From assembly GCA_018333865.1 (NCBI GenBank), contig JAGXSE010000071.1, positions 1 through 64,000 on the forward strand: 64,000 bases of DNA, written 5' to 3'. The position numbers and the translations under genes were made by a program. The notes under the pieces are model-generated. The model ran no database searches. It worked only from the letters and a program-made list of their open reading frames with translations, and was not told where the DNA came from. Below, piece after piece: positions 7,270 to 35,570 of this stretch (the stretch's first letter is position 1; the number at the start of each line of letters is the position of its first letter). This stretch comes from Syntrophomonadaceae bacterium (GTDB taxonomy: Bacteria > Bacillota > PH28-bin88).

Positions 7270-7480
7270 AGATTCAACTGGGTCTTGGCTTCAGAGGGGG
7301 ATTGCAACCCCCACTGAAGCTTAGAGCCAGTTAATATAGTAGCGTAGCCGCTCTTATCCCGCCGCTCTAATTGGGGACATTCCTGTCCCCAAAGACAGGC
7401 CCGAGCTTCAGCAGGTGTGTCCCCTTTCCTTAGCAGCGGGGGTATTAGAGCGGGTAGCTTATCTATGATAAAATGCTGGT
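7270..7480 (-). repeat. ~205-bp dispersed repeat, copy 1 (inverted relative to 31692-31900)
   Basis: The reverse complement of this stretch matches 31692-31900 with only a handful of substitutions and one or two small gaps. It contains an internal hairpin, TTGGGGACATTCCTGTCCCCAA, near 7371-7392. A frame runs through both copies, but three of the four coding differences I compared change the amino acid, so it is not a conserved gene. It lies between the IclR gene and the transporter operon, where it could affect the operon leader. Confidence 0.85.
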
Positions 7481-29559: not shown

Positions 29560-29655
29560 CATGTATTTATTCTGTTATTTCACTGTCCTCCCGCTATTTG
29601 CTGCCGGGCAGTTGCCCTGCTCCGGAGTTTCCTTCATAACTGCTCCCTTCATCCT

Positions 29656-29841
29656 TGTCCATCCCCTTTATAAAGAGTAAATAGGTGGCGTTTTTGACAA
29701 CCCCCCGCCAAAAAAATTGTTAATCCTCTGCATCATTCTTCCTGGAAAAAAACTTGTTAAGTTCGTTTCTTCCCCACATGGTATTAGGTTCGTAGCGGTG
29801 GACGGCATGAACTATCCATGCCGTGAGATCAGCAGTGGCTT
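29656..29841. repeat. Direct repeat, copy A (full) of an HTH-gene 3' segment
   Basis: Nearly identical to 34340-34519, which lacks about 11 bases and carries a few substitutions. It covers the 3' half of the leftward HTH gene and its downstream flank. A shorter related stretch occurs at 35583-35632. Confidence 0.85.
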
Positions 29842-29971
29842 CATCGTACCCCATCCGGTGCCCGTATTTTTTGACCAATGGAACAAAGCGGTTAACCAGT
29901 TCAATGACAGCTTCCTGATCGCCGTTTTTAACCTTGGCAACTAGCTCTTGGAGCCTTTGTTTCCCTTGCAT
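29720..29971 (-). CDS. Helix-turn-helix / sigma-like protein of mobile-element type
   Basis: An 83-residue protein. LQELVAKVKNGDQEAVIELV and RFVPLVKKYGHRMGYDEATADL resemble the small HTH_16/sigma-70 region 2-like proteins found on conjugative transposons and phage-like elements. The ATG is preceded by AATGGAGGGC. A c-di-GMP-I riboswitch sits about 210 bases upstream on the same strand, so its expression may respond to c-di-GMP. The 3' part is duplicated as a fragment at 34409-34510. Confidence 0.65.
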   Translation of the reverse strand: MQGKQRLQELVAKVKNGDQEAVIELVNRFVPLVKKYGHRMGYDEATADLTAWIVHAVHRYEPNTMWGRNELNKFFSRKNDAED

Positions 29972-30167: not shown

Positions 30168-30179
30168 AAGTTCAGTTCA

Positions 30180-30262
30180 GCGGCAGCCTGGCTATCGTAG
30201 TGCCGATAAGCACCTTAGACCCTGTGGCTTTGCGTCCCCACCTTTCAATGGGTTTGCCCTTG
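30180..30262 (-). ncRNA. Cyclic di-GMP-I (GEMM) riboswitch
   Basis: On the minus strand the stretch opens GGGCAAACCCATTGAAAGG, continues with GGGGACGCAAAGCC and GGGTCTAAGG, and closes with GATAGCCAGGCTGCC. These are the conserved parts of the c-di-GMP-I aptamer: the GNRA-like GAAA loop, the ACGCAAAGCC ligand-pocket strand, the CUAA segment and the closing helix. It should sense c-di-GMP and regulate the downstream leftward HTH gene region. Confidence 0.88.
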
Positions 30263-30507
30263 ACGCCTGGTATGCGGTTATTTGGCGGGTAAGTAAAATC
30301 ACCACCTTTCTCCTCCTGCCTTTTAAGACGTGCCTAAAAGGAGAAATGTTCCATTATTGCCAGTAATACTGGTAAAAACTTATCTTCTTTTTTCGACAGG
30401 ATTTGCGTGGGCAAGCAAGGACGGATCGCGCTGCATCTATTTTTTTCTGGCCTTATACCTTTTCGAGAGCTTGTTGCCGGCTTATTTTTAGTTTTAATAT
30501 TACATAA

Positions 30508-30745
30508 CCGGCTCTATCTGAAGACGGGGAAGGATAATACCTGGACCGAAGGCCGGGTACGATCTCTAAGGCATTACCAGGGTATTCCCGTTTATTCCCC
30601 CGAGGAACAGGCTCAAGCTGGATAGCTAAGCATGGCCCAGGCCGCCGAGTACCTAGGGGCCAGCCCCATGTCGGTCCGGCGGTTGCTCGCGGCGGGAGTC
30701 ATTCAAGGAAAACATATTGTTGTTTATGCACCGTGGATACTGTTA
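30508..30745 (+). pseudogene. Remnant of a serine recombinase C-terminal region
   Basis: The frame contains NTWTEGRVRSLRHYQGIPVY, then a TAG at 30623-30625, then in the same frame AQAAEYLGASPMSVRRLLAAG and APW. This is the C-terminal HTH-bearing tail found on large serine recombinases. The stop falls where relatives have Trp, so one nonsense change plus loss of the 5' end and the extreme 3' end explain the remnant. No intact copy is in the window. Confidence 0.6.
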
Positions 30746-30899
30746 TTATATGCTGCGAAGTTTCATGGTTGTTACCGACGAGGATTAGCTGCGATAATAA
30801 ATTATGCAGTAAAACTTCAGACGGTGGCAGCTTTATCGATTGAAAATTCCAGACGGTAAGAGGGATTTGCAAGCGGTGTGTCTCCGTTCCTTTTAATGT

Positions 30900-30980
30900 G
30901 CCCAACGTGCAGCTTGAAGGGCACGGAGACAGCAAGCGAAGCGGGCTGGCAGAGCATCCCTCTCGAAGTGCTTGTTAGGC
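30900..30980 (-). other. Integron-type attC site
   Basis: On the minus strand the element opens with GCCTAAC (RYYYAAC, 30980-30974) and closes with GTTGGGC (GTTRRRY, 30906-30900), 81 bases in all. The inner arms can fold back imperfectly: CTTCGAGAGGG near the start faces CCCTTCAAG near the end, and CAGCCCGCTTCGCTTGCTG forms the tip. The hicA stop codon lies inside the GCCTAAC box, as is usual for cassettes. Confidence 0.7.
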
Positions 30981-31196
30981 ATGAAGCGCCTCGATGAACT
31001 CGTCTGGCGAAACGCCAGCCTGCTTTAGCAGACCTGTCAGGGTGCCGACTTTCAACTCGCTGTGGTTGGGCACAACACAACCGGACGAGCCACGGCGCAT
31101 GACGATGTGACTACCGCGCTGACGGGCCACTACGAAACCCAGCCGCTTCAATGCGCGCACCACGTCAGCTCCCGAGACAACGGGCAATTTAGGCAT
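30975..31196 (-). CDS. hicA: HicA family toxin (mRNA interferase)
   Basis: A 73-residue protein with the double-stranded RNA-binding-like fold of HicA. GADVVRALKRLGFVVARQRG and SHIVMRRG carry the catalytic His (His30) and the nearby glycine of the family. It cleaves mRNA when free of HicB. The ATG lies inside the end of hicB (8-base overlap), so the two are translationally coupled in the order antitoxin-toxin. The stop codon sits within the attC box. Confidence 0.85.
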   Translation of the reverse strand: MPKLPVVSGADVVRALKRLGFVVARQRGSHIVMRRGSSGCVVPNHSELKVGTLTGLLKQAGVSPDEFIEALHA

Positions 31197-31395
31197 GCGT
31201 CGGAACCTGGAATGTCGTCAGCAAGGGGCGCCCGCTGACGGAAATCGGAAATTCTTCCAGATAAAGCTCCGTTGCCTCGCGCAGATTGGTCAGCGCCTCT
31301 TCCACGGTTTCGCCTTGCGTTGTCGTGCCTGTCTCCGGATTGAATGCCACATAACCCCCTTCCGGGGCGGGAGTCAAAACTGCTGAAAGTTCCAT
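31189..31395 (-). CDS. hicB: HicB family antitoxin
   Basis: A 68-residue partial RNase H-fold antitoxin with GGYVAFNPETGTTTQGETVE and EALTNLREATELYLEEF, the standard HicB core. It neutralises HicA. There is no C-terminal DNA-binding domain, as in short HicB forms. The ATG at 31395 is preferred over the one at 31401 because GAAGGAG ends seven bases upstream of it, whereas it abuts the earlier codon. Confidence 0.85.
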   Translation of the reverse strand: MELSAVLTPAPEGGYVAFNPETGTTTQGETVEEALTNLREATELYLEEFPISVSGRPLLTTFQVPTHA

Positions 31396-31691
31396 AAGCA
31401 TCTCCTTCGACTGATAAATTTTTGGAATGCCTAACAGTGTTTATATCGATCCGCAAGAGTTATGTGTGAGGGCAATCATGTTTTGTATAACCTCTCTTGT
31501 TAAGAGATAGCATGAGCAATAGGAATTTGCTTTTCCCTGGAGCAAGTATAAAGTATTCTGTTATGTATGTCAACCACATAATTATCCATATATTACTTTG
31601 GGTTACACAATATGGCACTGATTTAGGATCGTGCGCCCGGTTTGGATTTACGGTAAAAATATACCCTTGGAGCATTTTGCCAAAAGGGTTT

Positions 31692-31900
31692 CAGGATTTT
31701 TATCATAGACAGCTACCCGCTCTAATACCCCCGCTGCTAAGGAAAGGGGACACACCTGCTGAAGCTCGGGCCTGTCTTTGGGGACAGGAATGTCCCCAAT
31801 TAGAGCGGTGGGATAAGAGCGGTTACGCTGCTATATTAACTGGCTCTAAGCTTCAGTGGGGGTTGCAATCCCCCTCTGAAGCCATGACCCAGTTGAATCT
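31692..31900 (+). repeat. ~205-bp dispersed repeat, copy 2
   Basis: Matches the reverse complement of 7270-7480. It lies between the hicBA cassette and the lipoprotein gene. A frame through it has no ribosome site of its own. Confidence 0.85.
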
Positions 31901-34065: not shown

Positions 34066-34339
34066 TTTTACTTCCTCCTTACTTTTTTTCTAGTGAGGGG
34101 GCGCACCTCTCACTCTGTAAAAAACAGTGATCATCTGAAGTCACAGCCTGACCAAGGTTTTTTGTTGCCTGCCAACTGTTTAAAATGACCCCCTTGCCTT
34201 CGGGTCAGGGTAGCTGCCTGTCCTGGATGAGGCTCTACTTGCCGGTGGGCTCGTCCAAAACAAATCTTTTTTTAACCAGGCAGCGATCACTTGCTCAGGA
34301 CAATATGCGCTAGGGATAATTCATCATCCTCACCTCCTT
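34066..34339. other. Intergenic stretch without a supportable gene
   Basis: It contains a hairpin GTGAGGG...CCTCTCAC near 34094-34113 and a leftward coding-like frame (AAWLKKDLFW) without a usable start. Nothing else is recognisable. Confidence 0.35.
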
Positions 34340-34519
34340 TGTCCATCCCCTCTACTATATAAAGAGTAAATAGGTGGCGCTTTTGACAACCCCCCGCCAA
34401 AAAAATTGTTAATCCTCTGCATCATTCTTTCTGGAAAAAAACTTGTTAAATTCGTTTCTTCCCCACATGGAATTAGGTTCGTAGCGGTGGAAGGCATGAA
34501 CTGAGATCAGCAGTGGCTT
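34340..34519. repeat. Direct repeat, copy B, containing the C-terminal fragment of the HTH gene
   Basis: Matches 29656-29841. On the minus strand 34510-34409 still reads HRYEPNSMWGRNEFNKFFSR to the stop, so the copy is a gene fragment without its start. The rightward end breaks directly before the AbrB-type antitoxin gene. Confidence 0.85.
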
Positions 34520-34593
34520 AGCGGTATATGGCAAATGTAGTTAAAATCGGTTATAATAAAGTTAAAATACTACTAAAGAAGGAGCTTGAACAT

Positions 34594-34839
34594 ATGGCTA
34601 ATGCATACGTTATAGATAGTGATTCTATTAAGCTTCCAAAGGAGATTTCCGAGAAGCTGAAATTGAGGCAAGGGATGGAATTAAAGGTTTTATCGGATGA
34701 AGTGGACGGAGTTTTGATATTAAAGGTAGTTGAAGGTAAATGCAAGGACTTTTCCGGCATAAAAGGTATTGGCAAGGAAATATGGAAAGATGTTGACGCA
34801 CAGGAATACGTCACTCGGGAGAGAAGTGAATGGAATTAA
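34594..34839 (+). CDS. AbrB/SpoVT-like antitoxin
   Basis: An 81-residue protein with the swapped-hairpin AbrB fold: IKLPKEISEKLKLRQGMELKV covers the DNA-binding region. It is the antitoxin and probable autoregulator of the PIN toxin that follows. ATG 34594 is used because AAGAAGGAG lies ten bases upstream; the earlier ATG at 34528 lacks one. The last ten bases overlap the toxin gene. Confidence 0.8.
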   Translation: MANAYVIDSDSIKLPKEISEKLKLRQGMELKVLSDEVDGVLILKVVEGKCKDFSGIKGIGKEIWKDVDAQEYVTRERSEWN

Positions 34840-35261
34840 AGAATGGAACAAGGCTTTTTGTAGATACGGCACCGATTATATACTTTATTGAGGAACATCC
34901 GTTATACATCGATGAGGTTTCCGATATATTTGGAAGAACAGCTGAAGGAACTTTACAGGTGATTACGTCAGTTATTACCATGATAGAGGTTCTGACAAAA
35001 CCATACAAACTTGGACAAAACGAGATTGCATGTGCATACAGGGATTTCTTTACTAATTCAAAAGGATTTTCTGTCATGGGCATTAATACCGATATAGCGG
35101 AATTAACTGCACGAATAAGGGCTAAACTTGGGTTTAAGTTACCAGATGCTCTTCAATTAGCAATTTTTGAGCATAACAATTGTGATGTTTTTCTCACCAA
35201 TGATAAGCAGTTAAAAATTTATGATAAAAGCAGGCTTTATATCCTGGGTGAAAATGATTAA
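34830..35261 (+). CDS. PIN domain toxin (VapC-like)
   Basis: A 143-residue ribonuclease of the PIN family. The acidic residues D12 (FVDTAPI), E53 (MIEVLTKP), D106 (LPDALQL) and D125 (LTNDKQL) form the metal site. It degrades RNA unless bound by the antitoxin. Its start overlaps the antitoxin gene by ten bases, so the two are translationally coupled. The AT-rich codon use differs from the housekeeping genes, as expected for a mobile toxin-antitoxin module. Confidence 0.85.
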   Translation: MELKNGTRLFVDTAPIIYFIEEHPLYIDEVSDIFGRTAEGTLQVITSVITMIEVLTKPYKLGQNEIACAYRDFFTNSKGFSVMGINTDIAELTARIRAKLGFKLPDALQLAIFEHNNCDVFLTNDKQLKIYDKSRLYILGEND

Positions 35262-35269
35262 GGTAGCAA

Positions 35270-35570
35270 GTAGGGACGACTGTTTTCCACGAGCACACTT
35301 TAAATAAAAAGTATGATGCTGTACAAGAGATGAGGGGAGGCCCCTCAAAGTCGGCTTACAGGGGCAGGCTTTAAACCACCTTAATCTGCTCAGGTAAAGA
35401 GCCTGGGTGGTGAGCGTTGCGGAAAAGGCAGGATAGAACCTGTCAGGTAGGGTACAAGGAGACGAGCGTGAGCAAACCGCCAGCTAAGTGTCGAAACCTT
35501 GATTGATGGCGTCAAGACCTTTATGCCAAAGCCAAAAAGAAGGTAAAAATAAATAATTTTAGGAGTGTGC
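35270..35570 (+). mobile_element. Group II intron fragment (5' domain I-like)
   Basis: GGGTACAAGGAGACGAGCG near 35449-35467, GAGCAAACCGCCAGC and AGTGTCGAAACCTTGATTG then TCAAGACC match the layout of group II intron domain I around the exon-binding sites. No intron reverse transcriptase frame follows, so this is a truncated remnant. It stands just before a copy of the short repeat at 35583 and the truncated epimerase. The identification is from memory of intron patterns. Confidence 0.5.

Follow-up and report, generated by a model that had tools for sequence, protein, structure and literature searches.

A lone HicBA integron cassette, probably integrated outside any integron, in the chromosome of a spore-forming Bacillota bacterium

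Gene cassettes of integrons are mobile elements characteristic of Proteobacteria. Integrons have been reported as extremely rare in Firmicutes, the survey with IntegronFinder 2.0 having recovered one complete integron and a few CALIN across the phylum, with Limnochorda pilosa as the only Firmicutes host of a complete integron in that dataset (PMC9024848). By default, current software discards single attC sites (PMC9024848). The term SALIN has been applied to a single attC lacking an integrase (PMC12690207), and HicAB cassettes have been reported in two previous studies (PMC7370490, PMC4909258). The locus described here, found in a 64-kb window (the whole stretch of DNA that was analysed) on a 78-kb contig of a Bacillota assembly, resembles a SALIN or a single-attC CALIN in having one cassette, one attC and no integrase, but differs in its host, a member of a phylum in which complete integrons are almost unknown. 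With the Limnochorda pilosa integron it shares the presence of integron parts in Bacillota, although the latter is complete and carries its integrase. Environmental integron hicBA cassettes (L003, L004, L002 and L014) have the same gene pair, the same TTAGGC start and a stop codon at or near the R'' box, and in L003 and L004 the attC lies behind hicBA, as it does in the window; however, the environmental cassettes lie in arrays, whereas the window cassette is alone and has a longer attC, of a subtype of its own that it has in common with a single copy in another phylum (L007, described below). Insertion of cassettes at attG (G^TT) sites outside integrons is said to have been described by Loot et al. 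in 2024 (cited in PMC12901181 and PMC12690207). The window cassette resembles such insertions in that it occupies a G^TT site away from any integron and has a promoter-like sequence upstream of it, but differs in that its host lacks IntI and in that the insertion is inferred. The kind of element, a single cassette outside an integron, is rare but already known, and it is the host that is unusual. We consider the locus to be, with good probability, a lone HicBA integron cassette (SALIN) that has integrated, outside any integron, into the chromosome of an endospore-forming member of the Bacillota.

A preliminary description of this DNA had placed boundary boxes, a hicB-hicA pair and an 81-bp attC on the minus strand, and all of these elements were found at the described positions. 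The 5' boundary box GTTAGGC (31429–31435, minus strand, as are all cassette features below) is the point at which similarity to L007 begins, and the crossover would fall between G 31435 and T 31434, giving a cassette proper of 529 bp (30906–31434) that reads TTAGGC...G and has a GC content of 57%, against 42% and 48% in the flanks. The 5' box is separated from the hicB start by a short, promoterless leader of 33 bp, of the type seen in integron cassettes, which includes the ribosome-binding site AAGGAG (31402–31407). The hicB antitoxin gene (31189–31395) encodes 68 amino acids starting with MELSAV; an ATG at 31401 is in frame with it but lies too close to the ribosome-binding site. The hicA toxin gene (30975–31196, 73 amino acids) overlaps hicB by 8 bp, and its stop codon TAA lies inside the R'' box GCCTAAC (30974–30980) of the attC. 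The attC site (81 bp, 30900–30980), supported by the covariance models R2 and R3 described below, contains an L'' arm CTTCGAGAGGG (30958–30968), which pairs with the L' arm CCCTTCAAG (30913–30921) and leaves bulged bases over, both arms being placed from folds and model alignment, and is closed by the R' box GTTGGGC (30900–30906). This R' box has one mismatch to R'', while the cassette's own TTAGGC end is a perfect match to GCCTAAC.

The HicA product is a clear family member (Pfam HicA_toxin, 64.1 bits; matches to solved HicA-fold chains) and retains a GSH motif, thereby presenting the GxH histidine of the double stranded RNA-binding-like HicA toxins. The HicB product is a weaker member of its family, with DUF7387 just below the cut-off and matches to solved HicB chains at E 4e-5, a weak but consistent indication of a HicB antitoxin fold next to hicA. 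By homology, the pair would be a HicBA type II toxin-antitoxin system. Relative to L007, dN/dS is ~0.05 for hicB and ~0.08 for hicA, and both genes are under strong purifying selection, the mostly silent differences between the two copies indicating that both genes have been kept functional.

The nature of the 81-bp element was assessed with two covariance models of our own, R2 (22 attC, taken from the resistance cassettes at plasmid loci and from proteobacterial contigs with hicBA) and R3 (a broader set of 71 matches), the window site and L007 being excluded from both training sets. With filters off, the element scored 19.9 bits with R2 (E 0.009 in 64 kb; runner-up 11.0) and 25.2 bits with R3 (E 0.0016 in 64 kb; runner-up 9.5), ranking first in the 64-kb window by a wide margin with both models and well above background, which bears out the attC call of the preliminary description. 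These E-values are modest and, at genome scale, not significant alone without context, and when R3 was run with default speed filters on 1.08 Mb of host DNA the window attC was absent from the matches. The boxes GCCTAAC and GTTGGGC, in an element of 81 bp, agree with the attC pattern (R'' RYYYAAC and R' GTTRRRY, about 57–141 bp apart), and the fold and model alignment give complementary L'' and L' arms, leaving extrahelical bases and an unpaired spacer. When folded as DNA, the bottom strand takes a bulged hairpin as its minimum-energy structure, as expected for attC. Were the locus an ordinary hicBA operon that has similar-looking boxes and a hairpin by accident, this would account for words of the R-box type, which are common, and for a DNA-folding energy that is unremarkable (z 0.9, no better than shuffles). 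However, the host DNA has few R''/R' pairs at attC spacing that differ by no more than one mismatch (24 in the 2.16 Mb of strand sequence given by both strands of 1.08 Mb), and in arm pairing the window element is third of these 24, surpassed only by a near-perfect inverted repeat that was counted once per strand. Against such a coincidence, too, related hicBA pairs share boxes and attC at the same places, the boundaries common to L007 contradict it, and in two other Bacillota genomes (G166 and G216) the nearest hicBA copies have ordinary genes on either side and neither boxes nor attC. Chance is thus scarcely credible as an explanation, and the evidence supports the element as a real attC and the locus as an integron-type cassette.

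The genome contigs of close HicA relatives (L003, L004, L002, L014, L022, L026 and others) show that their cassettes start at or near a GTTRRRY-like box and adjoin attC, and several of them sit in arrays. Rhodocyclaceae, Tepidimonas, Methylotetracoccus and Nitrosomonas halophila have homologous cassettes within true attC arrays, and an integron integrase over the cut-off is present in the genomes of L003, L014, L026 and L031. The search in proteobacterial integrons thus recovered related hicBA cassettes in attC arrays, as the preliminary description would predict. No DNA matches to the cassette were found in plasmids and no HicA matches in phages, while the HicA relatives on plasmids have at most about 45% identity; a relative on a viral contig (L132) was set aside, as its boxes are absent. 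The donor is not placed by the HicBA tree, whose resolution is poor; by path, the nearest copy is L007. The out-of-family origin suggested in the preliminary description finds support in that the relatives are proteobacterial integron cassettes, but the nearest copy belongs to Thermodesulfobacteriota rather than Pseudomonadota.

This nearest copy (L007), in Syntrophobacteraceae bacterium CG2_30_61_12 (Thermodesulfobacteriota), shares 81% DNA identity with the window across hicBA. The two sequences can be aligned from GTTAGGCATTCC through the end of the attC, and their flanks are unrelated. As similarity begins and stops at both recombination points between unrelated flanks, the cassette has moved as a unit, and the locus comprises what defines an integron gene cassette, namely a gene with its attC, G^TTRRRY bounds and movement as a unit, the bounds being common to L007. 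L007 is likewise a lone cassette with the same attC type and the same boundaries, differing in its phylum, in its insertion site and in the partial IntI-like match in its genome. It lies between a histidine-kinase-like gene and a large convergent gene, no second attC was found in the 8-kb L007 locus, and when the flanks of L007 are joined the convergent gene gains a plausible short end (...IDDSTI stop). The partial integron-integrase-like match in the L007 genome (G399, C203:589-1009; 109.6 bits) covers the first half only.

The window cassette is well inside the 78-kb contig and its host is, as previously described, a Firmicute: Spo0A is present, and the host is therefore very probably an endospore-forming member of the Bacillota. 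In the upstream flank, 263 bp from the cassette, lies a copy of an interspersed repeat (31698–31900, no strand assigned) that matches the host assembly at dozens of places and also occurs in the same-family genomes G001 and G002. The downstream flank contains a c-di-GMP-I riboswitch (30179–30268, minus strand) upstream of a small helix-turn-helix (HTH_16-like) ORF (29720-29971, minus strand), and the same riboswitch and ORF order is found in the same-family genome G002. The repeat and the riboswitch with its ORF anchor the two cassette flanks to the host and its family. A misjoin of a proteobacterial cassette into a host contig is conceivable in an assembly of this kind, which looks like a MAG given that no 16S gene was found in it, but the cassette edges are the recombination points rather than random positions, and host-type features lie on both flanks of a cassette placed far from the contig ends, making an assembly artefact very improbable. 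The cassette's flank is absent from both relatives in the three-genome class, with no empty site recovered there, and an exact search of viral contigs for the joined empty site gave none.

Several further features were observed in this region. The interspersed repeat, which also occurs at 7270-7473 and has dozens of matches in the host assembly (G000), is ~200 bp long and modular, with strong hairpins and GGGGACAGGAATGTCCCC inside; its inner 62-bp module is also found alone in G000 and in G002 and looks like a small element nested in another. An ORF at 30632-30859 on the plus strand starts with a helix-turn-helix-like sequence (MAQAAEYLGASPMSVRRLLAAGVIQGKHI) and then loses the resemblance, and is perhaps a truncated gene. 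A direct repeat of ~190 bp (29655-29841 and 34339-34519, 89% identical) brackets a 4.7-kb stretch holding the cassette; the parts of the genome that were sampled yielded no further copy. A group II intron RNA (D1-D4-2, 107 bits; 35332-35448) adjoins a PIN-domain toxin-antitoxin-like pair (34528-35261).

The integron integrase search was conducted with TIGR02249 at the family cut-off and yielded no match over it in the host assembly, such that the intI gene of a complete integron is not recognisable there, while the same search found matches in G310, a single-contig genome that may be that of Limnochorda pilosa, and in several proteobacterial genomes. This agrees with the preliminary description, which had reported no integrase. 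Its further statement that no other attC is present is sustained for the 64-kb window and for the sampled parts of other contigs, where no second attC was found, with the exception of C22 (locus L138, 1-4893), another contig of this assembly, 4.9 kb long, in which the R2 whole-genome scan detected attC and which carries six of them; the statement would hold for the assembly only if C22 is misbinned. The cassettes of C22 encode a CHAT-like protein, an adenine-specific methyltransferase with a neighbouring possible restriction gene, and small frames. The attC of C22 are proteobacterial in type, unlike the window attC, and 12% of the contig matches Pseudomonas, Escherichia and Enterobacter plasmids at 80-83%. 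C22 contains no host repeat, and its composition is no outlier among the contigs, which does not settle its ownership; it is either a real CALIN of the Bacillota host or a misbinned, possibly stray, contig. At the window itself the SALIN pattern is seen (one attC, none nearby and no integrase), with the six attC of C22, of uncertain ownership, at the level of the assembly. Among 399 evenly sampled genomes of the phylum, an attC at E 1e-4 or better was detected in six, including the host of the window.

If the host does own C22, the window cassette could have been relocated from this array or captured along with it, and the several cassettes of C22, including one with a DNA methyltransferase gene, and its unexceptional composition fit such a source. 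We nevertheless regard this origin as distinctly improbable, in view of the small size of C22 and its want of a host repeat, its different attC type and plasmid matches, the lack of an IntI in the genome and the chance that a MAG bin includes a stray contig. Somewhat better placed, though still unlikely, is the explanation that the cassette was not inserted alone but is the last remnant of a decayed integron or larger array that arrived on another element: the C22 array suggests that the lineage may have met integrons, and the flanks resemble gene debris, with the truncated-looking helix-turn-helix frame at 30632–30859. On the other hand, no attC arm was seen beside the GTTAGGC box, no second attC was found in the window, the flank adjoining the box is AT-rich and host-like, and in L007 this cassette likewise stands alone, at a site unrelated to that in the window.

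Insertion of a single cassette, or capture at a secondary site as proposed in the preliminary description, is the best reading of these data. A cassette circle would have entered the cell, where a tyrosine recombinase of the IntI kind, from another replicon or a transient element and acting in trans, would have recombined the folded attC bottom strand with a chromosomal attG-like site (...AACACT-G^TTGGGC-ACATT...). The product would begin with TTAGGC and end with the attC, the last six bases of its right box deriving from the target. When a cassette inserts, the target contributes the six bases that follow the crossover at the right box. For R' these are TTGGGC, and they are probably target-derived, because R' mismatches R'', while the TTAGGC end fits GCCTAAC as a closed circle requires. 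The empty sites would accordingly have read AACACT-G^TTGGGC-ACATT in the window and TAGATC-G^TTGAGT-CGTCG in L007, both of these putative targets being G^TT sites, in keeping with attG insertions outside integrons (cited in PMC12901181 and PMC12690207).

A promoter-like sequence in the host flank (TTGACA-17-TATACT, 31545–31573, minus strand; 11 of 12 consensus matches) lies ~110 bp upstream of the cassette boundary and points into the cassette. As the 33-bp leader is too short for a promoter, the cassette is probably transcribed from this resident sequence, making expression from it likely. Neutralisation of HicA, an mRNA interferase, by HicB is to be expected and would favour retention of the cassette.

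The broader interpretation, to which we give about even odds, is that single insertions of one cassette lineage have taken place in the chromosomes of at least two phyla other than Pseudomonadota, namely Thermodesulfobacteriota and Bacillota. The G^TT sites used would be unrelated, and the Bacillota insertion would lie directly below a resident promoter, in a cell that has no integron integrase of its own. If this is true, cassettes would be reaching Gram-positive lineages one by one via integrases acting in trans, a form of spread that would have been overlooked because surveys usually remove single attC sites. The window cassette provides a concrete case in which to examine insertion outside integrons, and a clean-bounded lone cassette in host DNA, together with another lone copy in a different phylum, suggests that entry of cassettes into Gram-positive bacteria may be commoner than surveys show.
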